From: Cymbidium sinense
Taxonomy: Eukaryota; Streptophyta; Magnoliopsida; Asparagales; Orchidaceae
Assembly (NCBI GenBank): GCA_021442155.1
Contig: CM038215.1
Location: forward strand, 4,426,976-4,490,975
Reading direction: 5' to 3'
Length of the DNA: 64,000 nt
Shown here: positions 11,591 through 62,410 of the stretch, one piece after another
Layout: the number at the start of each line of letters is the position of its first letter
How positions within the stretch are numbered: the stretch's first letter is position 1
Program-made: the position numbers and the translations under genes
The notes under the pieces: model-generated
Told to the model about the DNA's origin: nothing
What the model saw: only the letters and a program-made list of their open reading frames with translations
Database searches by the model: none

Positions 11591-11598
11591 CCAACTTA

Positions 11599-12620: not shown

Positions 12621-12739
12621 TCAATAAAGGTCCAAAATAGAGATAAGTATTATCCCTTATTGATATTGAACTCATCAAAAATTACTCTCTTAAAGGGGAG
12701 GTTTTACCAAGAAGGATGAGAGGAGTAAGATTGGAGGTA

Positions 12740-18299: not shown

Positions 18300-19060
18300 G
18301 GGTAGATTGAGTTGGAGTCAGGTATGTGGTGCGGTAAGCCCATAAGGCTTCAACCAACTACTCATTCCACGCTGCTTGTTGTCATCAAGAGTCTTCTTTA
18401 GTATTTGGATGAGAGTTTTGTTAAATGCTTCTACTAAACCATTTGCACTGGGGTAGTAGATGGTGGAGTATCTCCAATCTATACCATGTATTCTGGTGAA
18501 GTTGTTGATCTTGGTGCTTTTGAGTGTAGTACCATTATCAAATATAATTTGTTGAGGCACCCCAAACCTATATATGATATGGTTCTTGAAAAATTGAAGC
18601 ACATACTGAGTTATGACCTCTTTGAGTGAGATTCTCTGCCCGGAAAAGTAGTCGATGGTAGATGAACGATGCCTCTTGGAAGGAGGAGGATCGATAGGAC
18701 CTACAATGTCAGTACCCCAACACTCGAATTGCCATGAAGCCAAGGTAGGGTGTAGAATATTGGGCGGTTGGTGAAGGACCACATCGTGTACCTGACATTG
18801 ATGACATCTCCTAGCTACATCCATGTAGTCTATAATCATCAAAGGCCGGTATTATCCTAGTCTCTTGATATTCATCTTCATCTTCAGACCAGATTGATGC
18901 ACTCCGCATAGACCTAAATGTACCTCAGTCATAAAACCACATGCTTCATATTTGTCTAAATAATGTAACCACATTTGGTCAAAGGACCATCGATATAGGA
19001 TGCCATCAACGAGAGCATAAGTGAGAGGTCTTTGTTTCACCTAATGGGCTTGTGACTTCT
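18300..19060 (-). pseudogene. Element A: integrase zinc finger and catalytic core
   Basis: Two open stretches (18852-19040, then 18318-18842) together hold most of the integrase. The HHCC finger is seen as EVHLGLCGVHQSG and RRCHQCQVHD, the first catalytic Asp in FECWGTDIVGPID, the second in QIIFDNGT, and the Glu in NGLVEAFNKTL; all three DDE residues are present. The residue between IGPID...HRSS and the second strand is shortened relative to other copies (CGWFILVATDYFSK in C). A stop separates the finger's two halves (near 18850). It has decayed, but it is the best integrase copy in the window. Confidence 0.85.
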
Positions 19061-19084: not shown

Positions 19085-19690
19085 AATAGTCTATGACAGT
19101 TGCCTCCAATCCAGCTCCTCATCCTTTTTGGCAATGACAACCTCCCATTCAAGAAAAAGTCTCTCGATGAGTTCAGCATTAATAAGGGATAGAACTTGTC
19201 TATTTTGGACCCTAACTGGAATGGTCTCATCTTCTGGACATGCCAATTCTTTAGCAAGTTTTTCCAAAGCATATGCTATTGTGTTATCTACTCGGGGAAC
19301 CTTGTAGATGGTGACTTCAGGGATTTGGGCCAACAACTTCATGGTATACTCGTGGTAATGATGAAGCTTGAGTTTGAGAACTTTGTAGGACCCCACAATT
19401 TGATTGATAACTAACATAGAATCCCCACAGATGTTGATGCTCTTAACACTGACTGTGATGGCTAACTCCAGACCAGTAATCAAAGTCTCATACTCAGTTT
19501 CATTGTTGGTGTAGGGGTTAGAAAGATAGTATGAGAATCTCATCACATCACAGTCTGGAGTAAGGAGGACTATTCCAACCCTTACTTTTCCTGGAAGAGT
19601 AGATCATGGTATTTCTCCTTTATGAAAAGAAGCTGCACCATCAAAATACATCTCCTATTGGTAGTTGTCAACCTCCCCTAAGTTCATGAT
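19085..19690 (-). pseudogene. Element A: archaeal-type RNase H (aRNH)
   Basis: The stretch 19091-19546 is open and encodes MRFSYYLSNPYTNNETEYET (catalytic Glu), ICGDSMLVINQI (catalytic Asp) and VDNTIAYALEKLAKELA. The preceding YFDGAAS (first Asp) lies near 19640, separated by a stop and frame change. The last catalytic Asp, expected in the ADAL block, is Tyr (GAT to TAT), while B and C keep Asp. The tail (19075-19272, frame-shifted) leads into integrase. This domain distinguishes Tat elements from other Ty3/gypsy lineages. Confidence 0.85.
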
Positions 19691-23021: not shown

Positions 23022-23640
23022 CTAACTTATAGCTTCTCCTATGGGTCCCTCAAAATTAGATGATTCCAAGTCCATATCAAGAGGTGAACTCGTAGTATTA
23101 AGAGTATGAAAATCTAACTCTGAATCAGAAAGAGGAAGATCCGAATTATTATAGTTATTTAGACTTGAAGAGTTATCATTAAGAATAGAAGCAAACAATC
23201 CATCAGAAGTAACACAAATGTAATTCAAGCTAGCTTTATTCTTCAATTTCTTGGATTTGATAGGAGGTACAAAGTAGGAATCAAGTAAAGTAAGTGGGGT
23301 AAGGGATTTTATGCCCTTATCTACCGATACAAGAGTTTAACTAATAGAAGAAGAAGAGCTAGCTAAAGTAGAAGAAGTCGATGTAGAAATGGTAGGCGGA
23401 GGTGGACTCTCAATGGTTGCACTATGGGCTATCTGGAGCACATACACTTCTATTGTTCTTCTAAGCTCCCGCCTTCCTTGAGTTGGCACTGGTAACTTGC
23501 AAACCTTCCTTGATGTTGGAGGTTTGAGCTGACTCAGGCACCTGCAAGGAAAGTTTCTTGATTTTCTTAACAATATTTTTAGAGGTTTTAAATAAGGAGA
23601 TATCCCAACCTTCTTTGGTTTTGGAAGGATCACAAGTACC
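23022..23640 (-). pseudogene. Element A: Gag-protease spacer (serine-rich), copy 1
   Basis: Minus-strand spacer downstream of the zinc knuckle. It includes a Ser/Pro-rich stretch (TISTSTSSTLASSSSSIS), the block LVSVDKGIKSLTPLTLLDFY and NKASLNYICVTSDGLFASIL (open stretch 23022-23246). The equivalent spacer in C (50257-50735) and B (56660-57000) has the same order. Probably an unstructured linker in the polyprotein. Confidence 0.65.
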
Positions 23641-25697
23641 TAATGGAACTGGATGGTTGTTCCATAAGGTATTTCTTCAGGATAACTATAACATCGATCT
23701 TGAAGCTATGTTCAAGCTAGACCTTGAATGTGAAGCAATCTTCTAAAATATACTAGCATACGGTGGTAGGGTAAAAAGTTAGGATCAGTGCTTTTGCCCA
23801 CTTCCTCGAGTCTTCTAAGTTCGGGTAATTGAAAATCAGGCTTCTTTAAGAGATTCTTAAAGATCTTCCTGATTACCTCTCTCTTAAATGAATAAGGCTT
23901 ATTAAGTTTAGCCAAAAGAGTAGGTGGACCATAGCTACCTGCCAGCGGCTAAGGAGGAGGTTGTGTAGGCCATGGAGGCTATTATAGAAGCTGGTTGGGC
24001 TGCCTTAGTGGTGGTAGAGGAGGTGGAAGTAAAGGCAGTTGAGGTCGTGGTCTCTCAGACTGATCTCTAGTTGGTTGCTTCCCCTTGTCTATCACTGTCA
24101 AAGTTCCTGGCTTCTTCTCATATACCTTTCGTGGCTTTGACTTGGGCAACTGGTCTTGAAAACACAACTATTTGGCCTCTCCTTGTAGACTAGTCACCTT
24201 GTTGATTAACTTCTCAAAAGTTTTGATGGTGTGGCTCTTATGCATGAAGGCAACCAGGCCATGGATATTCTTTATAAGAATCTCAATGGCATGTTATTTA
24301 AATAGTTGTGACTGGCATTTCATACTCAAGTTATGCCATCTGAGAATGTAGTCAACGAGGGACTCACCTGGGTGTTATTGTGCTACAGTGAGATCACCGA
24401 CAGTGACCATTTGTTGAGCTCCAACAAATCTCTTGATAAAGAGTTGCTCCAACTCAGCAAATGTCACTAAATTTTTGGGAAGTTTAGCATACTAGTAAAA
24501 TGCTATACCCACTAAGCTACTGATAAAAAGATGGAATAGTAAAGTGTCACTAGCACCAACATTCCAATAACTAGCTCTAAAATGTGTGATGTGCTACCTC
24601 GGGTTTCCACTGCCATCAAAACTCTTGAAGGAAGGTGGTACGAAACCATTAGGATATTGGATTACATCAAATTCCTCTGGGTAGGGTCTACCCTTTGGAA
24701 TTGATGATCCTCCTTGGGCGTGAGCCAATACTTCCTTCACCTACTGTAAAACCATGGACTTGATATCTTTTTTTTGAATGCAGTTACTATTCTCTACCTT
24801 CTTATACATGTTGGTGCTATGTTGCTCTACTAGAGGTAAGGTCCTGGCTGAGTCCAAGACAAGCACCAACTCTAGCTGACTAGTCTCAACTATGGTAGAT
24901 TGAATTAACGGGGCTTGATTTTACAATGCTAAGATAGCTGCTAATAAATCTTCAAGTCTTTTTTCTATCCTATCATTCTTTTCATCCTTCTGCTTTATTT
25001 GTGCTAGGAGGTGTTGGGTTGAGTGGGTTGTGTCTTCCTGCTCTGCCTCAACACCTTCCATAACCTCCTACTCTCTGAGGAGGGATCACCTAGTATCTAC
25101 CATGGAAACCCCTAATGAGTCTCCCAATAAATCATCTTTGTTGGGATCAAAGCTGATATTCTAATCATCAGACCAGTCATATCCTAAGAATTCTTATTTT
25201 TTTCATAAGATATGTGCCACTACGTACTCTAGAGAATGATCAATCTGAATAGACATAAATGACTTTAGCTAAATGGTATGATCACTATCATGTATTAAGA
25301 GGTACCGGACTTCCCCTTCTACTAGAGAATTAACCCTATGAGGACTATACTCACTGGAAGAAATGCACTCCTAACTGTCACTAACTCTGTATGGGGTGAC
25401 ACTCTTGGGAGGCTCTACCATCATAGGTGCAACTGGGTTGTCATCTTCTCCCTCTATAACTGTTGTAACCATCTCTATGTCATACTATAAAGGTGGTGTT
25501 GGTGAAGGGATGACAACTATGCTTTAGGGTCGCCATTCCTTCCCCACTATGGCGGAAGGGCGCTCGGCCTCACCACAGTAGGTGGTGTAGATGGAATGGG
25601 ATCCTTTGGCTACAGCCAGATCACCAAGGGGGTCCTCTTCTCCCCAGATGTGACCTTCATGACCTTTGGTGGAACTGGAGATGCTGAAACATGAATG
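23085..25697 (-). repeat. Gag-region tandem duplication, copy 1 (about 2.6 kb)
   Basis: This segment is repeated head-to-tail at 25698-28290, with a constant offset near 2580-2613 bp throughout. For example, the homologous ORF ends at 23712 and 26307 differ by 2595. The junction near 25697 joins ...GCTGAAACATGAATG to TGAACCCATAGTATTAAG. The same two sequences lie at 28281-28293 and 23085 at the outer ends. Short ATG/TGA microhomology is present at the join. Confidence 0.9.
23700..25130 (-). pseudogene. Element A: Gag remnant, copy 1
   Basis: Gag forms the virus-like particle. Minus-strand blocks in order are a charged coiled-coil-like N-terminal part (KDEKNDRIEKRLEDLLAAI, near 24930-25000), the retrotransposon Gag capsid segment with LPKNLVTFAELEQLFIKRF (near 24430-24490) and LVDYILRWHNLSMKC (near 24310-24370), then a basic Pro-rich part (23982-24167). 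Last comes the zinc-knuckle segment KSTDPNFLPYHRML (23712-23915), where the first Cys is Leu. A 2-nt deletion right after the knuckle (compared with B) throws the frame; copy 2 has the same deletion. Stops are scattered through the capsid. Confidence 0.75.
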
Positions 25698-28290
25698 TGA
25701 ACCCATAGTATTAAGAGTATGAAAATCTAACTCTGAATCAGAAAGAGGAAGATCAGAATTGTTATAGTTATTTTGACTTGAAGAGTTATCATTAAGAATA
25801 GAAGCAAATAATCCATCAAAAGTAACACAAATGTAATTCAAGCTACCTTTATTCTTCAATTTCATGGATTTGATAGGAGGTACAAAGTAGAAATCAAGTA
25901 AACTAAGTGGGGTAAAAGATTTTATGCCCTAATCTGTTGATACAAGAGTTTAACTAGTAGAAGAAGAAGAGCTAACTAAAGTAGAAGAAGTCATGTGGTA
26001 GGCGAGAGGTGGACTCTCAAATGGTTACTAGGCTATCCCGGTGGCACATACCCCGCTATTACAGCTCCTTCCTTGAGTTGGCACTAGTAACTTGCAAACC
26101 TTCCTTGATGTTGGAGGTTTGAGTTGACTCAGGCACCTGCAAGGAAAGTTTCTTGATTTTCTTAACAATATTTTTAGAGGTTTTAAATAAAGAGATATCC
26201 CAACCTTCTTTGTTTTTGGAAGGATCACAAGTACCTAATGGAACTGGATGGTTGTTCCATAAGGTATTTCTTCAGGATAACTATAACATCGGTCTTGAAG
26301 CTATGTTCAAGCTAGACCTTGAATGCGAAGCAATCTTCCAAAATATGCTAGCATACGGTGGTAGGGGCAAAAGTTAGGATCATTGCTTTTGCCAACTTCC
26401 TCGAGTCTTCTAGGTTCGGGTAATTGAAAATCAGGCTTCTTTAAGAGATTCTTAAAGATCTTCCTGATTACCAACCTCTTAAATGAATAAGGCTTGTTAA
26501 GTTTAGCCAAAAGAGTAGGTGGACCATAGTTACCTGCCAGCAGCTAAGGAGGAGGTTGTGTAGGCCATAGAGGCTATTATGGAAGCTGGTAGGGCTGCCT
26601 TAGTGGTGGTAAAGGAGGTGGAAGTGAAGGCAGTTGAGGTCGTGGCCTCTCGGACTGATCTCTAGCTGGTTGCTTTCCCTTATCTATCACTGTCACAGTT
26701 CATGGCTTCTTCTCATATACCTTTTATGGCTTTGACTTTGGCAATTGGTCTTGAAAACACAATTGTTTGGCCTCTCCTTGTAGACTAGTCACCTTGTTGA
26801 TTAAATTCTAAAAAGTTTTAATGGTGTGGCTCTTATGCATGAAGGCATCCGGGCCATGGATATTCTTTATAAGAATCTCAATGGCATGTTATTTAAATAG
26901 TTGTGACTCGCATTTCATACTCAAGTTATGCCATTTGAGAATGTAGTCAACAAGGGACTCACCTAGGTGTTATTGTGCTACAGTGAGATCGCCAATAGTG
27001 ACCCTTTGCTGAGCTCCAACAAACCTCTTGATAAAGAGTTGCTCCAACTCAGCAAATGTCACTAAATTTTTGGGAAGTTCAGCATACTAGTCAATTGCTA
27101 TCCTCGCTAAGCTACTGATAAAAAGATGGAATAGTAAAGTGTCACTACTACCAACATTGCAATAACTAGCTCTAAATGTGTGATGTGCTACCTCGGGTTT
27201 CCACTGCCATCAATACTCTTGAAGGAAGGTGGTACGAAACCCTTAGGATATTGGATTGAATCAAATTCCTCTGGGTAGGGTCTACCCTTTGGAATTGATG
27301 ATCCTCCTCAGGCGTGAGCCAACACTTCCTTCACTTACTGTTCAACCATGGACTTGATATCTTTTTCTTATATGCAGTTACTGTCCTCTACCTTCTTATA
27401 CATGTTGGTGCTACCTTGCTCTACTAGAGGTAAGGTCCTAGCTGAGTCCAAGATAAGCACCAACTTCTGACTAGTCTGTATGATTGAATGACGGCGTGAT
27501 TTTACAATGCTAAGACAGCTGCTAATAGATCATCAAATCTCTTTTCTATCCTATCATTCTTTTCATCCTTTTGCTTTATTTGTGCTAGGAGGTGTTGGGT
27601 CGAGTGGGTTTTGTCTTCCTGCTCTGCCTCAACACCTTCCATAGCCTCCAACTCTCTGAGGAGGGATCCCCTGGTATCTACCATGGAAACCCCTACTGAG
27701 TCTCCCAATAAATCATCTTTGTTGGGATCAAAGTTGATATTCTAATCATCAGACCAGTCATATCCTAAGATTTCTTATTTTTTTTATAAGATAATGTGCT
27801 ACTACGTACTCTAGAGAATGATCAATCTGAATAGACACAAATAACTTTAGCTGAATGGTATGAGAACTATCATGTATTGAGAGGCACCGGACCTCCCCTA
27901 CTATTAGAATCAACCCTATGAGGACTGTACTCACTGGAAGAAATGCACTCCTAACTGTCACTAACTCTGTACTGGGTGACACTCTTGGGAGGCTCTACCA
28001 TCATGGGTGCAACTGGGTTGCCATCTTCTCCCTCTATAATTGCTGTAACCATCTCTATGTCCTACTTTAAAGGTGGTGTTGGTGAAGGGATGACCACTAT
28101 GCTTTATGGTCGCCATTCATTCCGCACCATAACTATGGCAGAAGGTCAAGCAGGAGAGCTTAGCCTCACCACAGTATGTGGTGTAGATGGAATGGGATCC
28201 TTTGGCTATAGCCGAATCACCAAGGGGGTCCTCTTCTCCCCAGATATGGCCTTCATGACCTTTGGTGGAACTAGAGATGCTGAAACATGA
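25698..28290 (-). repeat. Gag-region tandem duplication, copy 2 (about 2.6 kb)
   Basis: This is the upstream (sense-direction) copy of the duplication described at 23085-25697. It joins the upstream ORF at its high-coordinate end, as in element B, so this copy is in the ancestral context at that side, and copy 1 is in the ancestral context toward protease. The copies differ by scattered substitutions and small indels. Confidence 0.9.
26300..27710 (-). pseudogene. Element A: Gag remnant, copy 2
   Basis: Same block order as copy 1. The stretch 27502-27708 (MGDSVGVSMVDTRGSLLREL...) gives a helical, charged N-terminal segment, then the capsid segment (about 26900-27270) and the basic Pro-rich part (about 26570-26750). 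The zinc-knuckle stretch is 26307-26510, where the first Cys is kept (NDPNFCPYHRML). Comparing this 67-residue stretch with copy 1, 7 residues differ. It carries the same 2-nt deletion after the knuckle. The Gag-protease spacer of this copy is at 25524-26228. Confidence 0.75.
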
Positions 28291-29301
28291 ATGGGCGATG
28301 GTGGATAGGGGATATAGCAATGTGGTGGAGACACCACCGACTCTCTCAGAATAGGGGCCCTCCTCCTATGATGGGTAGTCCACATAAGCAGAATAATATC
28401 TATATGATCGACATGGATAGCACACCGATCAGGAAAATCTATGAGTAGAGAGGCCACTGATTGCCGACTAAGCCTCCGCCTTTCTGCTAGTGATCTGAAC
28501 TGAACTTCAAGCCTCCCTAGCACTTTCTTACTGAAGATGCTTCCCCATGCAATGGGGAATAATAGATCTCAAGTTAAATTAAGCCTCAAACTTTGATCAT
28601 TAGGCTCTGCTAACCTGGTGCAGAACTGAACGGAGGCCAGCATATGACGCCTTACCCTAATTGACCGAGGGCTGAAATCAAACCGCTGGTGGAGGTGAAG
28701 CAAGGATCCTCCTAGCATCCTCTTTGTCAGACCTAGAAGGATGAAATGGGTTCACTATAACTAGCAGGGAAATCAAAGTGGGAAAATCCTCAACAACTGA
28801 TTGTGTAGCTGCCTACATCTCCTTGGCGATGTGGCTATGGTACCACTTTATCATGGGATTTTTGTTCCTCCTTTGAGTCCTCATAGGGTGAGTGGAGTAA
28901 GAGCTTGACCCCACCTTAAAAGTTGGCGAGACAATCCCTGGGATCAGGGGAGCCTTACCCTTTGAGGGTACTAATGAGTGGGTGCTAGCCCACACTAGGG
29001 TAACATGGGCAACATGGCTTTGTCACTTGAACGATCGGCATGTAGGAACTACCACTGCCTTCCTCTTTAGTGAGGGAATATCAGAGTCCGAGGGCATATC
29101 AATCTGAATGATCAGCTTCTGCCCGGTCACTGTGCTCTTGCTAATAATGGTGAGGGGAGTGCCCTCACAGGTAATTCTCTCCCTCTCAAAACCTCATCCA
29201 AAATGAATGAGGTGGGTGTAATCAGAGCGGGAAAATCTGGCATAATCCAGGGCCAAGTCCATCTCATGGGGAAAGGTAAACACATACTTGGGTGTTGCCA
29301 T
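28290..29301 (-). pseudogene. Element A: upstream ORF (ORF1 or Gag N-terminal extension)
   Basis: Starts at ATG 29299-29301 (MATPKYVFTFPHEMDLALDY). The same start is in B at 60160. A TGA stop sits after 35 codons (complement at 29194-29196), and protein similarity to B continues past it: ITCEGTPLT.ISKSTVTGQK, KRKAVVVPT, LHLHQRFDFSP, HMLASVQFCTRLAEP, LNLT then TGA (28569-28571), DLLFPIAWGSIF, then an Arg-rich part RSLAERRRLSRQSVASLLID. The two known landmarks are not in one frame in A, so there is also a frameshift. I do not recognise the fold. Tat/Ogre elements often have an unassigned ORF here. Confidence 0.6.
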
Positions 29302-31560
29302 TTCTATCAACTAAAAATTGAAATTGAAATTGTCGCTGAATGAGAGCCTGCAATGTTGAAAATAAACTTGAATTAGATTTCTATTGATTTTAAATTCAAA
29401 TTTTAGAAAATTGAACCCACCCTCAACATCTTGAAAGTGTTAAGTCAGGCTCAAATGGATTTAGAATAGATTTTGAGTATGATTGAAAAGAGGAATTTAA
29501 GATGTAGAATCCATTTTAAACAAATTTGGGAATGTTGAGAATGGCTTCAAATATTTTTAAAGAGATGGTACCATAGGTTCATATTTGAATTTTGATTTTA
29601 TTTTGATTTGGTGACCCTTCATTTAACAAATTTGAGTATGTTAAAATAAATGGTCAATTTGCTTTTATTTTGGTTTTGTCATTTTTGGAATTTGTTCACT
29701 GAGCAAATTTGAGTAAGCTAAGTGAGGTGTTTGAAAAAATTATTTCATTTTCTTTCTTTATTTGCTTTGTTTTGTGAATCATTTATTGATTTGAAAAATA
29801 GAATCCTTATTTAGCAAATTTGGGTATGCTAAAAAAAGAAGGATCCAAGTGTATTTTGTTTTGAAATTTTTTTGAAAATAGGATCATTATCAAATTTGAG
29901 TATGCTAAGAAAATCCTAATGTGTTTCTTTTGATTTTGATTTGATTTTTGAAAATAGAATTCTTAGCAAATTTGAGTATGCTAAGGGAATCCTAATGTGT
30001 TTCTTTTGATTTTGATTTGATTTTAAAAAAAGCATCTTTAGCAAATTTAGGTATGCTAAGGAAAGTCATAATGTGTTTGATTTTAATTTTAAAGGTAAGA
30101 TCCTTAGCAAACTTGGGTATGCTAACAAAAACCTAATGTGTTTCTTTAGATTTTTGATTTGGAAAATAGGATTCTTAGCAAATTTAGGTATGCTAAGAAA
30201 ATCCAAATGTGTTTCTTTTTGGAGATTTTTGATTTTGAAAAAGGGAGACTTCACTTTAGTAATTATGGTATACTAAAATGAAGTTCCAAATGTGTTTTGA
30301 AAATTTTTGTGAAATGGAGATTTCACCTAGCAAATTTGAGTATGCTAAATGAAATTCCAAAGGTGATTTTCAATTTTTTTTTTTGAAAATGGGAAACTTC
30401 ACTTTAGCAAATATGGTATGCTAGAATGAAGTTCCAAATGTGTTTTGCAAAATTTTTGTTTTTATTGATTTTGAAAAAGAGAGATTTCCATTTAACAAAT
30501 TTGGCTATGTGAGATGGAAATCAATTTTTGAAAGAGGAAATTTCAACTTAAACATATATGGAATATGTTAAGCAGAATTTCAAAATAATGTCATTTTATT
30601 TGGAAATCAAATCTTCATTTACTAAATTTGGGTATATTGAATGGAGATGTTCATATGTGCTTTTGGAAATTTTATTTTTGATTTTGTTTGAAAATAAACA
30701 TCCATTCAGTAAATGTGGGTATATTGAATGGAGGGGTTCATATGTTCTTTTGGAAAATTTCTTTTATATTTTTCTTGAAAATGAAACATATATTCAATAA
30801 ATGAGGGTACATTGAATTGAGAGGTTATATGTGCTTTTAAAAATTTTATTTTGATTTTGTTTGGAAAGGTGAAAATTCCAACTTCTCAGATGTGGAATGA
30901 GTTGAATGGCATTTCAAAGTTGTAATAGATTTTTATTTTGAAGATGTAACATCAATTGAGCACATTTGAATGTATTAAATGGATAAACCCATCTTCAAAT
31001 TTTGTGCTTTTGGAAACATGATTGTTGAAATTTTATTTTTGAAAATGAGGAATTTACCAAAATGAATTGAGTGAAGATGCTCATTTGTACATTTAGAAAA
31101 TGTGATTGTTGGAATCTTATTTTTGTAATGATGATCCTACATATAACAATCATGAAGATTGTTAAATGAAGATTATTTAGGAAAATTTTTGTGCAAAACA
31201 TTTTATTATGTGCCTTTTTGAAAGAGTGATTTTTGAAAAGAAAAATTTTTATGAAGGATTTATTTTGTCTTTATTATTTTAAAATGAACCTTTCCTTACC
31301 ATAAAAATGGTAAGGAGGAAGTCTTTAAATATTTTCTTTTTATTAGATTTTTATTTTCACCCATTGGAGAACTCAACGGGGGTTTTAAGACCAACATGGG
31401 GTGAGGTCCTAAACCTAAAGATGTTGGCTAGCGTAACTTAAGGATGAAATAAGCTAAGTGGCAATGGAAAAGAAAAATAGTCATGGATTCATAGAAAAAT
31501 ACTAACCCACGATCGATACTTAGAGACGACGATCATTTACCAAAGATGGAGAGAGAAACC
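29302..31560 (-). other. Element A: 5' leader with an array of about 20 inverted repeats (hairpins)
   Basis: A non-coding leader between PBS and ORF1. From about 29510 to 31315 the sequence contains successive imperfect palindromes about 70-85 bp apart, each with a loop close to AAATTTGGGTAT or AATTTGAGTA. Examples (+ strand): CTTAGCA/TGCTAAG near 29963 and 30173; CATTTAACA/TGTTAAA near 29625; TTCACTTTAGCA/TGCTAGAATGAA near 30400; CCATTCAGTA/TATTGAATGG near 30701; CCTTACCAT/ATGGTAAGG at 31293-31314. The stem sequence changes between units but the two arms change together. The spacers are T-rich (TTTTGATTTTGATTTG). Element B has the same array at 60370-62175. Confidence 0.85.
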
Positions 31561-31579
31561 ATCCCTAGTGAAGTTGCCA
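31561..31579 (-). other. Element A: degenerate primer-binding site, tRNA-Arg type
   Basis: On the minus strand, directly inside the 5' LTR end, the sequence reads TGGCAACTTCACTAGGGAT. Compared with TGGCGACTCCGCTGGGGA, which is complementary to the 3' end of a plant tRNA-Arg as I remember it, the differences are mostly transitions. Ogre/Tat elements commonly use tRNA-Arg. The LTR terminus ...CACCACA lies about 9 nt upstream, slightly farther than usual. Confidence 0.6.
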
Positions 31580-31588
31580 GAAAAACCT

Positions 31589-34500
31589 GTGGTGAAATAT
31601 TTTCATTTCTAAGAGGTATACTTCCATCTTCAATCTATGTGAATAAAATGAAGATAGAAATATACTTATTTTTGTATTTGGACACTATGTAGATCCACAT
31701 ATGTTCTTATTAGAGTGATTGGGTATAACATTGAGGAGAGGTGTACTATCTTGAAAGATAGAAGTCACCACCCTATAGTGGACCTAATCACCTGAATAAT
31801 GACTCCTAAGGACAATGAGTCTGCATATGTACCAGTGATTCTTCCTCTACTTTACATGGAAAAATAAAGTAGGGTTTATTTTAAATCGAGTTCGTTAAGT
31901 TCCCTACATGGGCAAGCCCCTATAGTTAATTACATCCTAAGGAAGGGGATTCCTTAGGAATACTCTCGATTAAGGTAAATGATCATGTCTCCAAAGATTT
32001 CAATAGGTAGGACTATCAATCGATTAGTTTATTTTAGAAGATCAAATGAGATTGATCAAAGAGAGAGAGTTATTATTGAAGCCAAAGGAAGATAAGTAGG
32101 AGATGCTCATGATGCTAGGAAACCTAGCGAGCATCTAAAATTATCCTATTATTGGGATTTTAATTTTTGAAATTGAATTAATTTCTTTGAGTTAATATTT
32201 TATTAGAATTATAGGGCTTATAATTTTGTAATACAAGGTTATAGAAATGCCTAAGAGGTGTTGATTTATGCTCGTGGCCCGTAAAGGGAAGTAGCAACCT
32301 CTGAGCCTAAATCTAGGGAGCTTTGTTGAGGGGAACAAGAACAACCTAAATCTAAGGCAAAAATGGGTTTTGGTCTACCTCCACAATAGAGGGTAAATCA
32401 CCCAGTTGCTTGGACTTACAACCGCTTGAGGGTGGCCGCCAACTAACTCCTCCTATGATTTTAAATTCATGTAGGCAAGTTATGTGCTTTATGCAAGATA
32501 GCTAGGCTATTATTTATTTAGAAGTAGACTAAGTCCTTAAACTCACTCCCTAAAAGACTAGATCATATAAGGGCATGAAAAATGACCTAGATCTAATGCA
32601 AATCATATTAAATTTTATTTTTATTTTTGGACAATCATTTGACCTAGGCTTACAGGATTCATATTCCTAATGCATGAGAAGTGAGATTATGGGCCAAAAT
32701 CAGCGAGAAGGAGGAGGTGTGTTTTCACCATGGCTCTCACAGGTCAAGACAAGTTCTTTGGTAAAGGTGGAAGCCCTCCAATCAATAGTGAAATAATATA
32801 GTTTTATGCATGATGTTATAAAAGAAATACTCATCCAACTATGGGGTTGCTAGTTCTTTTATCTTGATTTTTAACTTAGGCTTTAGGTGAAGTTATGAGT
32901 TGTTTAATTTGGTAGAAGATTTATTTTTCTCTAAGAGCCTAATCATCATCCAGGACATACATCAAGCAAGGAAGAAGCTAGAAAAACATGTCATCTTAAT
33001 GCACAAGCTAAACAAAACATCAATCATTATATAAAGGCCATTTGTGCACCACAAACCCAAAAAAAATAAATTGGGTAGCTCTTTATAAATGAATTAATTT
33101 ACAATCAAGTAAGGAATTCATGTAATGGGTCTTCATTCTTCATTTCTTCTTTCTTCTTTCTTCTTTTGGTTCCTTCTTTCTTCTTTCTTCTTTGGTTCCT
33201 TCCTTTGGATGGTTGGAATGTGGATGTTCCAAAGGCTTCACATGATACATAAGATGAGATCTTATGGCCAATGCTCATCCTAATACCCCATAACAATCAT
33301 TTCAAAATTATAATTTTAAAAAAATACATGAAAAGGAAAGTAAATCTAACTAACACCTGCAAAATAGAGATTAGCTAAACAAACCATACAAATCCCAAGC
33401 ATGTATATTGGACTTAGTACCCACACATGGGTAACCAAGTCCACCTATCCTATTGGATTATTCTTAGGGGTATAAGCACCTGTACAACAAAAGCAATTAT
33501 ATTTTTATTACAAAGCCCGTTAAGCACAATCCCCTATAAAAATAATGATTAGACTAAATCATCCTACCATTCATTTTACGCACATTCTCCCTAACATCTA
33601 GACTAAAACAAAACATCACAAAATAAAAGCAGACATCAAACCATACAAAGCCCTAACTAAAGCTAGAAGTGGTGACTTAGTCTAATGTGTGTGCTTTAGA
33701 AGGTTTGTGTGGTATGCTTAGTTATGGCTTTAAGGTTTGAATTTTTTAAGTGTGAAGATGTTCCACTTAGATGGGTGGTTTCATTTAAGTGTTTAGTTAA
33801 TTTGGATTGACTTTTATTTGATGATTTTTGTTTTGTTTAGATGAACCTACTTAATTACTAAAGTTTGTAAAGAGTGGAAAAAGAGAAGTGAACTTCTCTT
33901 TCCTTCCCAACCCTTAGTAACTTCTAAAGTAGATTCATGTTTGATTTTATTTAGTGAATGTTTTATTATGTGTTTTAATTAATCTTAAGTTTAGATCAAC
34001 TTTAAACAAACCTATTAAAAAGAAAGACATCTTAAGATTAAGTAATGTGAATTAATATCACAAAATACACATCACTTCATTTCTTTCCCAACATTTATAA
34101 CATGCATATGAATGAATCCTATGCATATCTGTACATAAAAATGAAAATGTTTAGCACACTTTATGATGAATGATAAGTGAGATACTTAAAAAAAATTGAA
34201 TGCTTTATGATGCATGATTTTTATTAAGTAGAAAAAAGGTTTTCTTATCCATTTTTCACATGCACACATGTAGGTATGAAAGGCATAAGTGAGTATGATG
34301 CCATTGTTAGCACCAGAGGTGTAAGGTACAAGACCTACTTAGGGCTACTTAAAGCCTCAACCCTAGGGTTTTCTAGACTAATATACCACTTTCCTTAAAT
34401 ACAAGCATATGTACAAAAGAAATGAATGGAAAAGAAAGATGCATAGTTTGTATTTGTTTGTTTGATTTGTTTATGAAATTTATATGTGTAAGTATGGATG

Positions 34501-35372
34501 TACTTCTTTAATTAATAGCATAGGAATGAATAGGAGTGGAGTTAGGCAAGTGTTATGTTCTTTTCAAGTGAACTATACACTTTGCCAAATCCTATTCAAA
34601 ATTATGCTAAAAGAAAAGAGAAAGAAAAGTACACTATGCACATCTTCATATTTATATCCACATGCAAGCTTAAAAATAATTATAAGTAGCACACTTTCTA
34701 TTTTGGATGTTTGATTTATAGATTTTGAAAGTAGTTTTGGATTTAGTAGTGATAATAGCCATTCATATTTTTACTTTAGCCAAAACATGCAATTTGACAT
34801 AAATAAAACATCTCAAATTTAATTTGATTTTAGAAAAACATGAATGCATGAAATTCATATGACATACATATTTAGCATGTTAGGAAAGAACAAAAGTGAT
34901 GAAAGCATGTAAACACATTCACCCTAATTAATTCCTAAAGACAACCTTATGAAATAAAAAAAATTAAAGCAAATCAAATTATTTTTAAGGAAGGTTTGAT
35001 TTTGTTTTGAGTTTGATTTAATTTGAGAAATGTGAGGTGAGTTTGTTGCTCCTAACCCATTCCCACATATGTTTGTTGATTTAATTTGTTCTGAAGATTA
35101 TTAGATGATTTTTTATATGTTGCTTAGGTTAAAGTATGAATTAAGTGTGTTAATTATCTCTTACCTATACCACCTTATCATACTTAATAAAATAATTATG
35201 AGCCAATGATATGATATAAAACCACACAAGGAATTTAAATCAGTAATGCACCTAGGAAAGAAAGTTACCTAATGCAATTGGCATGATTAATGATTAATTA
35301 AAATAAAGGGTATTATTTAAGTACTTTCATAACCCCTCTCACACATGTGAGTGGGATTTTGATTTCCATAAT
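31589..35372 (-). mobile_element. Element A: partial 5' LTR (U5-side 3.8 kb)
   Basis: Begins at TGTGGTGAAATATTTTC (the 3' end of the LTR in sense direction) next to the PBS. It is colinear with 35424-39182 of the C LTR, 2271-6000 of the solo LTR and 62439-64000 of B. It stops abruptly at about 35372 within TGATTTCCATA, which matches 39182, and the U3-side 3.5 kb is missing. A TTCTTTCTTC-type pyrimidine tract lies at 33120-33205. There is no coding content. Confidence 0.8.
33120..33205. repeat. TTCTTTC polypyrimidine tract in LTR
   Basis: A run of TTCTTTCTTCTTT units on the + strand (purine-rich in LTR sense orientation). The homologous tract in the C LTR is at 37010-37072. The open stretch on the minus strand here (33105-33296, Arg/Lys-rich) is produced by this composition and is not a gene. 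Confidence 0.75.
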
Positions 35373-35423: not shown

Positions 35424-38400
35424 TGTTGGTGAGAAATGAAAGAGGACAAGAACCTTATAGAAATTCATCTTTTTAGGATTTCACGTAGATCCACAGATGA
35501 ACTTATTCATGTGATCGAGTATGTTATCAAGGAATAGGGTACTATCTCAAAAGATAGAAGTCACGACCCTTTAATGGACCTAATCACCTCAATAAGGACT
35601 CCTAAGGATGATGGGTCTGCATATGTACCAGAAATTCTTCCCCTACTTTATATGGAAAAGTAAAGCAGGATTTATTTTAAACTGGGTTTGTAAAGTTCCC
35701 TACAAGGGCAATCCCCCATAGTTAATTACATCCTAAGGGATGGGATCCTTTAAGAAACTCTCGATTAAGGTAAATAATCATTATCTTTGAAGATTTTAAT
35801 AGGAAAGGACTATCAATCGATTGGTTTGTGTTTGAAGATCAAATGGGATTGATCAAAAGAGGGAGTTATTATCGGTAAAATGAGAGATAAGTAGGAGATG
35901 CCCATGATGCTAGGAAACCTACCGAGCATCTGAAACTATTCTATAGTTGGGCTTTACATTTTTGAAATTGATTTAGTTTGTTTGAGTTACATTTTTTCAT
36001 TAGAATTTTAGGATCTAAGATTCCTTAACATAAGATTAAGGAAATGGCTAACATGTGAGGAATTATGCTTATGACCCACAAAGGGGAGAAGCAACCTTAG
36101 AACCTAAATCTATGAAGCTTCGACGAGGGCTGGAAGCACAACCTAAATCTAAGGTGAAAAATGGGTAATTTGTTTGCCTCCACAAGAGAGGACAAACCAC
36201 CTGATAGCTTGGAATTACAACCGTATGGGGGTGGCTACCAACTAACTCCTCCTATGATTTTAAATACATGTAGACAAGTCTTTATCCTTATGCAAGATAG
36301 CTAGGTTGTTATTTATTATAAAGAGACTAAGTCCTTAAACTCACTCCCTAAAGACACTAGGTCATGTAAAGGGACATGCTTCAAATGACCTAAATCTAAT
36401 ACAATTTCAAATTTCATTTTATTTTCATTTTGGGCAATTATTTTGACTCAGGATTCATATGACTAATGCATGAGAAAGAAGGCTATTGTGGGTGAAGGTA
36501 GGAGGTGAGTTTCCATCACAGCTCTCAAAGGTTAAGCTGAGTTTCTCTGGCAAAGGTGGAAGACCTCTAATTAAGAGTGAAATAAGATGCATTTGTGCAT
36601 AATATTACAAAAAATGCTCATCTAGCTAAGGGGTTGGTAATCCTTTTATCTTGATTTTGAAATGAAGCTTTAGGTGAGGTTATAAGTTGTTTAATTTTTA
36701 TTTGAGTTGTTAAGATGGGTAAAAGATTTATTTTTTTCCCTAGAGAGCCTAATCCACATCCAGGCCATACATAAAGCAAGGATGAAACTAGAAAAATCAT
36801 GTCAGTTAATGCAAAAAGCTAAACAAATCATCAATCAATTTATAAAGCTAATTGTAAAAACAATAATAGGCCATTGTGGTCAGGCACCACTACACAAACC
36901 CAAAAATATCAAATGTGGGTAGCTGAGCTCTTCCCTTATACAACCTAGATTACAAATGAATTAAATTACAATTAAGCAAAGAATTCATTATTATGAGGGT
37001 CTTCAAGCTTTATTTTTCTTTCTTCTTTTTTTCTTTCTTCTTCTTTTTTTCTTTCTTCTTTGGTTGCTTCTTTTGGATGGTTGGAAAGTGGACACTCCAA
37101 GGCATCATATGGTGCATAAGATAGGATCTTATGACCATGCTCATCCTAATCCCCATAACAATCATTCCAAAATCCTAATTATACAAATTTACATGAAAAG
37201 GAAAAGTGGAAATCTAACTAACACCTGCAAAACAAATGTTAGCTAAAACACACAACATAAATCCTAAGCATGTATATTAGACTTCTCACCCCACCCATGG
37301 GTGACTAAGTGCACCTGGCCTATAGATTATTCTTAGGGGTATAAAGCACCTGTAAGCAAAAGCATTTATATTTTTATTTATGATAGTACCCCTTAAGTAC
37401 AATCCCATGTAGAAAAAGAATAGTTAGACTAAGAACGTCCTACCATTCATTCTATAAACATCGAAATCTAAAACATATATCACAAAATAAAATAAATATC
37501 AAATAATGCCACCTAAGGCTAGAAGTGGTGACTTAAGCTATTGTGTGTGCTTTGAAGGCTTGTGTGGTATTCTTAGTTATGGATTTAGGTTTAAATTTTC
37601 TAATTGTGAAGAACATGTTCAACTTAGAGGAGGGTTTCATTTAAGTTGCGTAGTTGTTTTGGGTTTATTTTATTTCATGTTTTGATTTTGTTTAAGTGGA
37701 TCTTACAATTAATTACTAAGTTATGAAGAGAGGGAAAGAGAAGAGAACTTCTCTTTCCTTCCCTAACCTAAGTAAATTCTAAAGTAGATTCACATTATAG
37801 TTTCATTTAGGTGAATGTTTTGATTAAATCTTTTAATTAATCCTAAGTTTAGATAAACTCTAAACAAACCTATTCAAAAGAAAGGCATTTTAAGATTAAA
37901 TAAAATGAATCAAAATTCACATAACACACATTACTTCATTTATTTCCCAACATATATAACATGCACATGGATGGACCCTAAGCATATCTATAAATGAAAA
38001 TGAGAGTATTTAACACACTTTATGATGCATGCTATGTAATCCATTTAAGAAAATTTAGAAGTTGAATATGCATGATTTTCCTTAAGTAGAAAGGGTTTTC
38101 CTTATCCAAATTTTTACATGAAAGTAAGAAAGGCATAAATGAGTACAACGCCATTGTTAACGGAGGTAAGGCACAAGACCTACTTAAAATACTTAAAGTC
38201 TCAGGGTTGTCTAGAATAATATTCCACTTTCCTTAAATATAATCATATGTATAAAAGAAATGAAATAGAAAAGGAGAATGCAAAGTTGTTTAATGAGTTG
38301 ATTTTTATTTATGCAATTTATGTATGCAAGTACAGGCAAACCTTATTAGTTGATAGCATAGGGATGAATAGGGTATGGAATTAGGTAAGTGTTGGGTTCT

Positions 38401-41400
38401 TTTCAAATGAACCCTACATCTTACCAACTCCTATTCAAAAGTATACTAACATAAGAAAGAAAAGAAACCTATGCTATGCATACCTTTGTAATCTATTACA
38501 TGCATAATCAAATCCTACTTTCAGATTTGGTATTTGATTTATGTGTTTAGAAAAGTAATTTGGATTTAGTAGTGATAATAGCCATTCATATTTCAACTTT
38601 AGCCAACACATGTAAATTTGAAATAAAGTAAACAATTTCATTTTAAAATTTGAATTTCAAAATTATGAATGCATGAAATCACATGAGATACAACTTAACA
38701 TGTTGGGGAAAGATTCAAAACAATGAAAGCATGTAAAAAACTCACTTCTCTTAAATCCTAAAACATTCTCATAGAATAAGAAAATTTAGAATAAATCAAA
38801 GTGAATTCAAAGTGCTTTTTGTTTAGTTTGAAGTTTGATCTAATTTTGAAAAGGTGAGATGAGTTTATTGTTTCTAACCCATTCCCACATGTGTTTAATA
38901 TTTTTTTAATTAATTAGATCAATTTTATGTGTTGATTAGGTTAAGATATGAATTAAGTAACTTAATTAACCCTTACACCACTTTAGAAGAATTAACTAAA
39001 TAATTATGAGCCAATGAGATGACATAAAACCCACAGAGAATTTAAATTTGCAATGCACCTAATAATGAAAAGGCCTAATGCAATTTGGCTCACAATTAAA
39101 AGTTAATTAAGCTAAGGGGTTTAGCTTAAGTAATTTCAAAACATCCTTTCATACTTATGAATGGGGTTTTGATTCCCTTATTTGAACTTAGGCTATCAAA
39201 CACCTAAGCATCTACCCAAGGTAGATTAATTAAGTTATGAAACTTTTTAGAATGTTTAGAATTTAGTTAAGTGGATAATCAATGAAATAACCCTTAATTA
39301 ATAGGAGACTAAGGAGAGAAAAGGGGGTTTAGGGAATAGCTTAGGGTAAATGCCCCAAAAATATTCCATAAACTTCCTACTCATTGGATCTAACATTAAT
39401 CAACACTAATCATAGGTTAAAATCACTAATCATTCCCTAATTATGCTTAGTTATATAAGGAGGGTAATTAAAAAAACCATATGCAATTCTTCTAATGAAG
39501 CCTTCAATAAATCCCAAGAAAATTAGTAGAGGTAGAAGTTATCCCTTAAAACATACCCATGAAATTTGGGATTAATTAGAAGCTTAATAAAAAAGTAATT
39601 AACAAAATAAACTTTCTAATAAAACCTAAATTTATGGAAAAGCATAACTCAAAACTCATCAAAATTAATTTTAAAATGTTTTAGGTTTAATTATCTATCT
39701 ATAAGATTTTATTTCATAATTTTCTAAATTTTTTAAAAGGAGTTATGAATTTTAGAAGATCCTTAAGTGAATTAAGAATTAGTTAAAGCATTTTTATTAA
39801 TCCCTAACTAATCCCTGGCTCACGGTGCGACGTGTGGCAGCAGCGGTCAGCCCGCTTTACACACATCATGCCATGAGGGGGTCACTTAAACATCACATCA
39901 TAAATAATGGTGGTGGAGCATGCATTTCAATCCTCTGTCGTCCGATCAAAGATGGACAACCAAGGATATCTCGCATTTTAAAATGAGTAATAGGAAATCT
40001 AAATGTGCTAAATTATCTCAACTGTCCATCTAAAATGCATGGATGGACAATTGAGATCATCCAAGTTCTTCCCCTTGATCAACAAAGACTGTCCATGATC
40101 AAGGGGAAGATCCAAGCTAGATCTAGCATGGATTCCAATCAAACTCAACCCACACCATCTAAAGATAGAGAGGGGAAAATCCAACGATAAAAAATTGATG
40201 GGGTGAAAATTTCTTTCTCGAAGCTCCACACCACATTGAGTAATGGTTAGATAATCCCATACCTCACTGGAGATGATCACTAGCACTCGAATCCCTTAGG
40301 GAAGCTTTGCTTGGTTGAGATAATGCCTTGCTAAAGTTTTGAGCACTTGAGGTTGGGTGGATCCTTCTATGGGTCATCTCCTCCTATGGTTGAGCTTTGA
40401 ATTTGATCCAATTCAATCCTCCCTTTCCTTTAGAACTTGGGAATCAACCTAGGTGAGCTTAACTTGGTCACCTAAGTGTGCTTGCAAAAGGAATTAGAAT
40501 GAAATGAAGTGTGGAAGAAGTTGGCAATTCAATTGGATTCCCCTATTTTCACTATTTGAAAACTAAGAAATGGAAGAATGGAATGAGCTCTAGGATGCTT
40601 GCTATCACTCTCTAATGACTCCTAGGTCTCACTAGCTCTCAGTCGAATTAGAGAATTATGCATTTGAGTTTATTTAGGTGGAGTATATCTTCCCCTTGAA
40701 GGATCAGATGATAATGAAAATGTTGTTTTGATCCAACTGATCATAGGCTAAGAGCTATTTGATCAGTTAGGAGTGTGCACATTGTCTGTTTGAGCCAAGG
40801 AGTGGATTGCCAACCTCCCATGTGCATGAATTTGAGCTTGAGAGGGAGTTTAAAATTTTTAATTTTTGACTATAGGGTCGGGTTTGGTCTAGGGACCAAA
40901 TGGGCTAACCCAAACCCATTGGGTTGGGTGCACCACTCTCCCCTAGGTCCCCTTGAGCTTTTAGGAAAGCCTCAAATGAATGTGAAGAGGGTATGACCAA
41001 ATTACCCACGGGTTAAGCCAAAATTTGTTCTATGCCCTAGGGGTAGGATGGTTATTTTGCTATTTTTCCACTTTGGATGTGTTGGGTATGTGGAGAAACT
41101 AGGGTTGGCCAAGTTTTAAAAGATTTGGAATTCAATTGGTAGGGTTCGACTCATGTTGACCCATTTAGGTCAAAATGGGTCAACTTGGGTCAAGTTGACC
41201 AATAGGTCAAATTGGGTCAAACCAAGGGTTGGGTCAAGTTCATATGACCATTTGAAATGTTTTTGTTACTTTGGTTTGATTCAATTTGGTATATTTTTAA
41301 TTTTGGCTCATATGACTACATTTAGGTCAAATGGGTCAAGTTGACCTATTTGATCCATTTGACCTATTTGAAGCAGGTCAAGGGTAGGCTTATGTTTGGT

Positions 41401-42729
41401 TAGTCATATGGAGTGGATTGGTATCTTTGTTTGCAATCAATTTGGGTTAAGTTCAATTTTTTGTCAACATGACCCCCTTTAGGTCATGTTGGGTCTAAGG
41501 TCAATTGGGCTAGGTTGGGTCTAGTTGACCAATTGAGGCTTTGGTCAAGTTCCACAAGTGATTTAGAATGGACTTGACCCATTGGTTTCAATCAATTTGG
41601 CTTAGATCAAATTTTGATACATTTTGACCCTTAAGGTCAAAATGGGTCAACTTGAGTCAAGTGACCAATTTGGCTAGGTAAGGCTCATATGTTGGCTTGG
41701 TCAAGTTCAAACATAAGTCATGAGTGAACTTAGATCAATGGTTTCAATCAATTTGGCCTATGGTGGTATTTGGCTATGTTAGATTTCATTTTGGGCTAAG
41801 TGTTGACTTGGTCAACTCTTAGGTTTAACTTGGTTTGACCCAATTTGAATGATTGATCATCCCATGATAATTATTGATCATGATGAGAGGGATATATGAG
41901 TTTGGTTCAATCCAACTTGGTTAGGATCAAAATTTGGCTCATAAGGGTACTTTAGGTCACTTTGGGTCAAGTGAGCATAAGTGGGTCAAATGGCTTGGTC
42001 AAAGCTTGATTTGAAGTTGGTTGATCTTGTATATGAACTTATGATTGAAATATAAATCCATTTACAAGTGGTTTTAATCAAATAGATTTTTATACATTTG
42101 AAGATTTCATATTCAAAGGAAGGATATGAAAGGGTTTAGGTTATATTTTTGAACTAGGTTTTGATTATTTGATTGAAGTTTGGATTTATATATGAGCTCA
42201 TGATTGTAGGACTGATTGAATCATGAAGAGAAATTAAGAGTTTGGCTTGATTTGAAATTGATTTGGCTAAGTTGAAGATTTTGACTTGAAAGGCTTAGAT
42301 TAGATTTTGGATTGATTTGAGTTTGGTTTTTGGAATAGGTTTTGATTGTTTAGGTTAAGTCCTTAAGGAAGGATTAAGGACTTAAGAAATTTTGATGGAT
42401 TTTGATCGTGGGTTTCAATCATTGATTTCAATCAAAGATTTGAATCATGGAATTGATTTGAGTTTGGAGAAAATCAAATAAAATTGATTTGGAGTTTGAC
42501 TTGAAGGAATGAAAGTAAGGAATGGTTTATGCTAAGGGTAGGAAGTTTTCCTAACACCCTTAAGGTATGATCTATTCCTATGGCTAACTCTTCTAAGTCT
42601 TCTAGGGCTAGGTTGAGTATCCACCTAATCACTAGATGTGTCTTAATACTAAAGAACTCTTAAAGTCTAAGAGAAGTCCTAAGCCTAAGATGGAGGGGTT
42701 GAGAGCTCATTCTAAAAATGAGGTCAACA
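35424..42729 (-). mobile_element. Full-length LTR (7.3 kb), 3' LTR of element C
   Basis: The only complete LTR in the window: + strand TGTTGGTGAG...AGGTCAACA, so minus strand TGTTGACC...CAACA, 7306 bp with TG/CA ends. Its left end is marked by a PBS remnant, and its right end is the same terminus that closes the solo LTR at 9398 and the A LTR at 14841. It contains the pyrimidine tract (37010-37072), AT-rich spacer (37500-39780), a GC-richer block (39800-41050) and the TTGACC/GGTCAA field (41140-42010). No conserved reading frame is found in it. Confidence 0.8.
41140..42010. promoter_or_regulatory. U3 field of TTGACC/GGTCAA motifs, element C LTR
   Basis: Between 41150 and 41350 alone I count at least eight GGTCAA and three TTGACC, including the palindrome GGTCAAGTTGACC (near 41190 and 41333). 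The motif is the W-box core for plant WRKY factors. Equivalent fields occur in the other two LTRs that keep this region. Whether any factor binds is not shown by sequence. Confidence 0.5.
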
Positions 42730-46400: not shown

Positions 46401-46439
46401 TGAGATAGTTTGTCGATGTTCAAGTAATCTATAAACATT

Positions 46440-46990: not shown

Positions 46991-46992
46991 TC

Positions 46993-48480: not shown

Positions 48481-48559
48481 CGAGGATTTTATTCCATCCT
48501 AAGGTACATTTCTTTAAGCTTGTCTATTGTTGAATGAATCTCTTCTTCAAACTCTTGCA

Positions 48560-49370: not shown

Positions 49371-49379
49371 ACTTGGACT

Positions 49380-56640: not shown

Positions 56641-56649
56641 GGTTCTACA

Positions 56650-60160: not shown

Positions 60161-62410
60161 TTCTGTCAACTAAAAATTGAAACTGCACTTAAACTAAAAC
60201 TGTGGCTAAATGAGAGTCTAAAATGTTGAAAATAAACTTGAATAAGATTTTTGCTGATTTTAAATTCAAATTTAAGAAATTGAACCCACACTCAACATTT
60301 GAAAGTGTTAAGTCAGGCTCAAATAGATTTAGAATAGATATTGAATTTTGATTGGAAAGAGGAATTTAAGATGTAGAATCTATTTTCAACAAATTTGGGT
60401 ATATTGAGAATGGCTTCAAATATTTTTGAAGAGATGCTTCCATAGGTTCATATTAGAATTTAATTTAATTTTTTATTTGGTGACCCTTCATTTAACAAAT
60501 TTGAGTATGTTAAAGTAAAGGGTCAATTTGCTTTTGTTTTGGATTTGTGATTTTTGGAATTTGTTCACTTAGCAAATTTGAATAAGCTAAGTGAGGTGAT
60601 TGAAAACAATTGTTTTATTTTTTTTCTTTGTTTGCATTGTTTTGCGAATCTTTTTATGATTTGAAAAATAGAATCCTTATTTAGGAAATTTGGGCATGCT
60701 AAAAACAAAAGGACCCAAGTGTATTTTATTTTTAAATTTTTTTGAAAATAGGATCCTTAGAAAATTTGAGTATGCTAAGAAAATCCTAATGTGTTTCTTT
60801 TGATTTTGATTTGATTTTTGAAAATTAGATTCTTAGCAAATTTGAGTATGCTAAGAGAATCCTAAAGTGTTTCTTTTGATTTTGATTTTATTTAAAAAAA
60901 GGATCTTCAACAAATTTATGCATTCTAAGGAAAGTCCTAATATGTTTCTTTTGATTTTAATTTGAAAGGTAGGATCCTTAGCAAACTTGGGTATGCTAAG
61001 GAAAACTTAATGTGTTTCTTTTGATTTTGGAATTGGAAAATAAGATTCTTAGCAAATTTATGTATGCTAAGAAAATCCTAATGTGTTTCTTTTTGAAGAT
61101 TTTGATTTTGAAAAAAAGGGTAAATATGGTATACCAAACTGAAGTTCCAAATGTGATTTGAAAATTTTTGTGAAATGGAGATTTCACTTAGCAAATTTGA
61201 GTATGCTAAATGAAATTCCAAAGGTGTGTTTCAATTTTTTGTTTTGAAAAAGGGAGACTTCACTTTAGCAAATATGGTATGCTAGAATGAAGTTCCAAAT
61301 GTGTTTTGCAAATTTTTTGTTTTTATTGATTTTGAAAAGAGAGATTTCCATTTAACAAATTTGGGTATGTGAGATGGAAATCAATTTTTGAAAGAGGAAA
61401 CCTCAACTTAATCATATATGAAATATGTTAAGCGAGATTTCAAAATAATGTTATTTCATTTAGAAATGAAATCTTCATTCAGTAAATTTGGGTATATTGA
61501 ATAGAGATGTTCATATGTGCTTTTGAAAAATTTATTTTTGATTTTGTTTGAAAGTGAAACATCCATTTAATAAAAGTTGGTATATTAAATGGAGAGGTTC
61601 ATATGTGCTTTTGGAAAATTTATTTTTGATTTTGTTTGAAAATGAAACATCCATTCAATAAATGTGGGTATATTGAATGGAGAGGTTTCATATGTGCTTT
61701 TGAAAATTTATTTTTTATTTTGTTTAGAAAGGTGAAAGTTCCAACTTAACACATGTGGAATATGTTGAATGGCATTTTCAAAGTTGTAATAATTTTTTTT
61801 GTTTGAAGATATAACATCCATTCAACACATTTGAATGTATTGAATGGAAAACCCATCTTCAAATTTTGTACTTTTGAAAACATGATTGTTGAAATTTTAT
61901 TTTGAAAATGAGGTCTTTACCAAAATGAATTGAGTGAAGAAGCTCATTTGTGCATAATGTGATTGTTGGAATCTTATTTTTGTAATGATGATCCTACATA
62001 TAACAATCATGAAGATTGTTAAATGAAGGTGATTTAGGAAAGTTTTTGTTCAAAATATTTTATTATGTGCATTTTTGAAAGAGTGCTTTTTGAAAAGAAA
62101 GATTTTTATGAAGGATTTATTATGTCTTTATTATTTTTGAATGAACCTTTTCTTACCATAAAATGGTAAGGAGGGAGTCTTTAAATATTTTCTTTTTATT
62201 AGATTTTTATTTTCACCCATTGGAGAACCGAATGGGAGTTTTAAGACCAACATAGGGTGAGGTCCTAAAACCTAAATATGCTAGCTAGCTTAACTTCAGG
62301 ATGAAATAAGCTAAGTGCCAATGGAAAGAATGATAGTATAGGGTTCATACAGAAGTACAAATCCACTATCGATACTTAGAGACAACGATCATTTACCAAA
62401 GATGGAGAGA
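60161..62410 (-). other. Element B: 5' leader with the hairpin array
   Basis: Homologous to 29302-31560. Inverted repeats run from about 60370 to 62175, again about 75 bp apart. Examples: CACTTAGC/GCTAAGTG near 60567; CTTAGCA/TGCTAAG near 60833 and 61050; TTTCACTTAGCA/TGCTAAATGAAA near 61182; CCATTCAATA/TATTGAATGG near 61652; CTTACCAT/ATGGTAAG near 62154. One unit (near 61120) has lost its left arm. T-rich spacers match those of A. Confidence 0.85.

Follow-up and report, generated by a model that had tools for sequence, protein, structure and literature searches.

Why does a series of hairpins in the leader of a retrotransposon keep both arms of each hairpin complementary while the arm sequence changes from one hairpin to the next? 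The question was raised by a first-pass annotation of the window, a 64 kb stretch out of the 3.5-Gb genome of Cymbidium sinense, which described about 20 hairpins spaced by about 75 bp in a Tat-like leader and proposed that their folded form was selected. We marked 22 candidate hairpin centers in 29302-31560, and arms and loop could be defined for 19 of them, with a spacing of 66-111 bp in 14 of 18 gaps; the three others (near 30562, 30894, and 31063) are bulged or decayed. The five stem pairs that the annotation had quoted were all present in the sequence, two of them with a G-T or C-A mismatch.

The array is carried by element A, a minus-strand, Tat-like Ty3/gypsy element whose sense strand is therefore the minus strand. 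The Tat lineage is defined by a second RNase H that follows RT-RNase H, and we found such an RNase H piece (Pfam RVT_3) at 19094..19603 on the minus strand, together with an integrase piece on the same strand at 18321..18851 (Pfam rve; its 27.3 bits fall short of the curated cut-off, 32.6). Along the minus strand, an LTR end at ~31588 is followed by an adjoining PBS-like stretch (31562..31579; GACTCCA in 38 of 55 aligned rows), by the array from 31320 to 29510, and by the first ATG after the leader (29299..29301), whose frame starts with MATPKY. This order places the array in the 5′ leader of the element (29302..31560, minus strand), as the annotation had it, and not between pol and the 3′ LTR, the place of the Tat 3′ repeats. 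The reading frames of this copy are broken, and none of the 20 pieces compared with Pfam matched Gag. Ogre elements have an extra ORF before gag and an intron between protease and RT. Ogre LTRs are long, 1.9-6.5 kb in the excerpted text of one report (PMC6431247). In the window, two LTR-like blocks of ~3.7 kb each lie in tandem (31689-35370 and 35485-39180; 76% identical), and the ends for one single element are not fixed. The second block lies ~4.1-4.5 kb from the arrays in several other loci, like in the window, so the doubling of the block looks like a fixed feature. A second array, in element B (60161..62410, minus strand), has the same unit order as array A.

The units of array A share a loop of 10 nt (sense strand, UACYCAAAUU-like), carried by stems of about 8-20 pairs that belong to several unlike classes. 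From the LTR toward the ORF, all on the minus strand, we distinguished a hairpin adjoining the LTR that forms a class of its own and has an AAAA loop on the plus strand (31289..31320); another of its own class with a CAATC arm, at chance level for the unit model (31136..31172; E 0.49); three D-class hairpins with TTCAATA-like arms, ~88 bp apart (30612..30822); three T-class hairpins with 16-17 pairs when folded, ~77 bp apart (30249..30431); six with TTAGCA-like arms, ~66-76 bp apart (29804..30203); and three at the ORF end, two of them weak (29510..29728; E 0.026, 2.7e-8, and 0.12). The array is ~73% A+T with 9% G on the sense strand, where the linkers between hairpins are A-rich and G-poor. 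RNAalifold returned no pairs in 5 of the 22 single units, so we defined the arms from the loop instead.

We searched the same genome for related arrays, retaining the best 40 of 3926 and the best 40 of 4755 candidates, which are not copy counts. We collected 58 loci, among them the window's own array B (L046). Forty-six of the 58 span the array and, together with array A, form one alignment in a single register (47 arrays). Loci that did not cover the array in one match were left out (6 of 38 in the first alignment and 12 of 58 in the second); the matches overlap in two of these, L017 and L024, and also in L044, which suggests another unit number there, so some of the left-out loci may differ in unit number and the single register describes the aligned arrays only. 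The unit model gave 803 matches at E ≤ 0.01 over 57 loci. In the window it gave 25 matches below E 1e-5, all on the sense strand inside the two arrays, 14 of them being the model's own seed and 11 lying in array B. From the 40 hits of a query with the second LTR-like block, we took, as possible diverged leaders, 16 leader-side stretches for which our lists had no array. Array similarity was found in five of these (L070, 88%; L085, 89%; L083, 72-84%; L072, 79%; L082, 68-72%), and the 11 others showed none. Besides weaker units, L082 holds nine near-identical T-class units, ~75 bp apart and folding at -17.2 to -25.7 kcal/mol, and L072 holds six D-class units, ~88 bp apart and folding at -14.0 to -20.9 kcal/mol, versus three T and three D units in array A. 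The class order is alike by eye as far as it can be read, and the classes thus seem to have been enlarged separately.

Pairing is much stronger between the two arms of one hairpin than between arms of different hairpins. Over nine positions, arms of the same unit formed Watson-Crick pairs at 82.6%, versus 49.1% for arms taken from different units (33 copies), and the own-arm mean was reached in 0 of 100,000 permutations. In this complementarity test only 8 of the 19 units had their own arm as best partner, because neighboring units are kin. When folded on the sense strand in six copies, own arms gave -12.26 kcal/mol and swapped arms -6.31 kcal/mol (0 of 100,000; in 11 of 19 units nothing paired better than the own arm); on the plus strand the values for the six copies were -12.15 and -7.18 (own best in 8 of 19). 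Swapping arms between subfamilies had a small effect in the D class (-14.4 own versus -13.1 swapped) and changed the T class from -19.6 to -15.6. Recent copying of one palindrome, a case that the annotation itself had raised against its proposal, is ruled out by the arm-swap tests and by the several unlike stem classes.

Permutations ignore the kinship of units, and we therefore also used a null that re-places the changes of each column on the unit tree. For 14 units, picked among the 22 hairpins for a nearly gap-free register, a choice that favors paired cells, the covariation score was 0.475 versus 0.229 shuffled; 9 of 13 pairs had changed on both sides, with 35 such cells versus 16.0. The score was 0.494 for 27 units from arrays A and B, versus 0.199 ± 0.044 under the tree-aware null (0 of 2000), and 0.518 for 43 units, versus 0.185 ± 0.049 (0 of 2000), while slid registers scored 0.07-0.17. 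The 43-unit set includes 18 of 20 matches from L082, L072, and L083, 11 of the 13 array B units of the 27-unit set, and 0 of 20 matches of L070 and L085, both close to array A; the relatives in it are 68-79% identical to array A, and the nine L082 units, as near copies of one another, count as few events. In this set, 87.3% of cells were paired, versus 65.6 ± 5.2 under the null, and 114 cells had changed on both sides, versus 28.2 ± 11.2 (each 0 of 2000). Branch events that changed both partners went from paired to paired in 11 of 13 cases, and the pair 13 steps from the loop showed five standard types across 41 of the 43 units. As a count alone, the tally of doubly changed pairs is ordinary, being reached by the null in 64 of 500 sets for 14 units, 161 of 2000 for 27 units, and 112 of 2000 for 43 units (nine pairs); nor is the number of pair types unusual, since 424 of 500 null sets reach it for the 14 units. 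The covariation signal resides in the score and in how many cells are paired or have changed on both sides. By the swaps and by the tree-aware score, the paired arm changes described in the annotation exceed both chance and unit kinship.

To compare folding with shuffled sequence, we scanned 120-nt windows against 40 dinucleotide shuffles each. On the sense strand, the mean z was -2.14 in array A and -2.50 in array B, and on the opposite strand it was -1.26 and -1.34; coding and remaining stretches gave -0.24 to -0.51 and the LTR blocks -1.07 and -0.21. The arrays thus fold better than their shuffles, although other non-coding parts also beat the shuffles somewhat: in a further scan, z was -0.61 to -2.22 for three parts of the 3′ region, each covered by 8 windows per strand, and -1.10 to -1.45 for the LTR blocks on the sense strand; excess folding is therefore not unique to the array. 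We did not take the sense-strand advantage in z as proof of an RNA, because the G-poor composition could produce it. Against the folded-form reading, the mean pair probability of the inner stems in a fold of the whole array was only 0.53 sense and 0.46 antisense. Chance folding is ruled out by the shuffles, the slid registers, and the tree-aware null taken together. What distinguishes the array is that its units line up without gaps around one conserved loop and that both sides have changed in 9 of 13 pairs. The loop is the best-conserved part of the unit, at 1.59 bits per site versus 0.58-0.80 in the flanks and 0.41-0.75 in the outer stems with gaps excluded, and at 1.55 bits versus 1.32 for the best 10-column flank run with gaps allowed; the linker stretch AAACACATTT is conserved nearly like the loop once gaps are allowed.

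Among close copies (~90% alike), pairs are broken equally often by older and by younger changes: of the single changes of Watson-Crick pairs, 37 of 80 on internal branches and 169 of 397 on terminal ones gave a non-wobble mismatch. Change densities relative to spacers were 0.184/0.257 (internal) and 0.793/0.966 (terminal) in the stems, and 0.135/0.257 and 0.612/0.966 in the loop, the internal values being only slightly lower. None of 316 pairs had two Watson-Crick types at ≥10% within close copies. Recent selection is not visible in these copies, and the argument therefore rests on the older divergence among units and subfamilies. On that divergence, selection of the folded form, as first proposed, stands as likely; among close copies the proposal finds no support, and correction by template switching could give the same pattern.

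Template switching is the strongest rival of the folded-form reading, and we regard it as a serious if doubtful possibility. It holds that the hairpins have no function: reverse transcriptase or the replication fork would switch templates at a hairpin, use one arm as the template for the other (quasipalindrome correction), and duplicate units, so that the structure feeds itself, arrays grow, and arms stay complementary. Such a process is consistent with the longest stems being found in the amplified sets of L082 (up to 20 pairs) and L072, with fixed G-U and A-C mismatches that are about equally common, with internal branches that lack an excess of pairing-preserving changes, and with the overlapping matches in L017, L024, and L044, as gain or loss of units would give. 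Correction does not predict, however, a loop kept better than stems and flanks, even if the linker stretch comes close; changes of both sides from Watson-Crick to Watson-Crick on one terminal branch are rare (3 among 482 pair changes), and the 47 arrays share one register, which also argue against it. If template switching were true, the array would be a clean case of covariation without function, which would matter for covariation-based claims of RNA structure in repeats.

Fixed mismatches did not prefer G-U on the sense strand (7 sense G-U versus 12 the other way), and the 41 G-U versus 25 A-C cells on the sense strand of the 43 units come from few events and are a weak signal. Proof of a sense RNA by G-U bias was thus not obtained. 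Fixed mismatches without strand preference would suit an element that acts as DNA, its dyad sites serving as cruciforms or as binding sites with a conserved 10-bp center in an insulator or other regulatory role, and the conserved center does recur at fairly regular spacing. We nonetheless consider this unlikely, as the arm sequence differs between classes and the arms are therefore not half-sites of one protein, and as a central motif needs no arm complementarity. The leader of Drosophila gypsy carries the Su(Hw) insulator array of a conserved protein-binding motif and is similar in being a repeat array in a Ty3/gypsy leader; we know of no covarying arms in it.

We tentatively favor the reading that the hairpins are kept for their folded form, most likely as a multivalent Gag-binding or packaging signal and possibly inside a leader intron, while holding it at somewhat less than an even chance. 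Stem sequences drift while pairing is kept and the loop stays; on this reading, the loops displayed by the full-length RNA would serve an RNA-binding partner, most probably the element's own Gag, as a series of binding sites. Repeated loops on drifting stems would fit the traces left by a multivalent partner that reads the loop. By analogy with the proposal made for small ssRNA viruses such as MS2, in which, according to the excerpted part of one account, multiple dispersed packaging signals comprise many stem-loops recognized by coat protein (PMC7317356), the very long RNA might thus be recognized, condensed, and packaged cooperatively. The likeness is one of working, many stem-loops offering repeated recognition features; the viral signals described there are dispersed over the genome, whereas array A is a tandem in one leader.

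If the array lay in a leader intron, spliced mRNA would lose it and genomic RNA alone would carry it. A candidate intron at 29348..31540 (minus strand; TTTG|GTAAAT to TTGCAG|) would hold the whole array, with GT at 31540 and AG at 29348 or 29311. A narrower proposal, which we found described nowhere and consider rather improbable, is that tandem, class-expandable hairpins with conserved loops and variable stems form a multivalent Gag signal on the unspliced genomic RNA only. Separate RNA pools have a precedent in a plant LTR element: in BARE, a spliced mRNA pool, with 104 nt spliced out within gag, stands against packaged unspliced RNA (PMC3735527, in part), although BARE is Ty1/copia and no hairpin array is described in that portion of the source. 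The GT/AG sites that flank array A would also fit hairpins that control splicing or ribosome bypass by shortening the path across the 2.2-kb leader and bringing its 5′ site close to the first ORF. The sense strand of the leader has 36 AUGs versus 29.3 ± 4.2 in shuffles, and with no depletion of AUGs ordinary scanning through the leader is unlikely, which is in keeping with such control and also with the favored reading. The candidate sites, however, are no better conserved than neighboring dinucleotides (GT 0.91, AG 0.71 and 0.89), and a genome search for spliced copies with a 21-base junction pattern stayed at chance level, with 3 hits versus 1 for the reversed control and none element-like; this search is weak because the pattern came from the window copy, whose G after TTGCAG is rare among copies. 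We give leader splicing or bypass control, as an explanation of the hairpins, a small probability.

A source of small RNAs, or hairpins otherwise related to silencing, could be proposed from the L082 stems, which reach 20 pairs. Most stems in the arrays are shorter than the usual plant small-RNA precursor, and a comparison of 29200-31700, which covers array A only, with Rfam gave no family at its cut-off (the sole match had 19.8 bits versus a cut-off of 75), making this explanation very unlikely.

Returning to hairpins kept for their folded form, we found no array of covarying hairpins described for the leader of an LTR retrotransposon in the literature covered, which was open access with few subscription papers; to that extent it agrees with the annotation, which knew of no such leader. 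Retand-type elements come close, being non-chromovirus Ty3/gypsy elements with a long non-coding stretch of family-specific tandem units, but their repeats lie on the other side of pol, whereas array A lies in the 5′ leader and consists of hairpin units with covarying arms; the words "leader," "hairpin," and "secondary structure" are absent from the main text of the Retand paper. In Sireviruses, which are plant LTR elements too, short dyad motifs likewise recur many times in non-coding sequence; in the excerpted description (PMC2829016), these palindromic repeats lie mostly in the LTR upstream of the TATA box and conserve a CGG-CCG core. Sireviruses are Ty1/copia, and the core is what that description gives as conserved; in array A the arms vary and the center is kept. 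Little is known of packaging and leader RNA structure in plant retrotransposons, and a series of ~20 comparable hairpins with many copies in one genome and diverged relatives would allow tests of which part (loop, stem, spacing, or number) is kept. Comparison of arrays would also tell whether RNA shape was selected or the palindromes corrected themselves.

We also noted other repeats in the window. A pol copy with RT and RNase H at 9400-13307 on the plus strand is ~74% identical to the minus-strand pol and contains RVT_1, RT_RNaseH_2, and RVT_3 in that order (10930-12518). Fifteen of 40 pol hits had one of the 66 listed arrays no more than 45 kb away, which makes 16 pairs with the window's own counted in; pol and array share their strand in every pair, and the array always lies to the same side. 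An inverted second pol seems to belong to the 3′ region of the giant element. This region also has tandem repeats with units of 167 and 181 bp (8560-9083 and 14104-14470), similar to those reported from the 3′ part of Retand/Tat elements. Folding is strong on either strand (mean z -1.94 and -2.22 over 8 windows each) in the non-coding 3′ region at 41105-43066. Between pol and the leader of element A lies a direct tandem duplication of 2.6 kb (23084-28293; 91.5% identical), and two ~6.3-kb minus-strand tandem stretches (44330-57048; 77-79% identical) are like the pol part of this element. Degenerate, telomere-like TTTAGGG repeats occur at 119-205.
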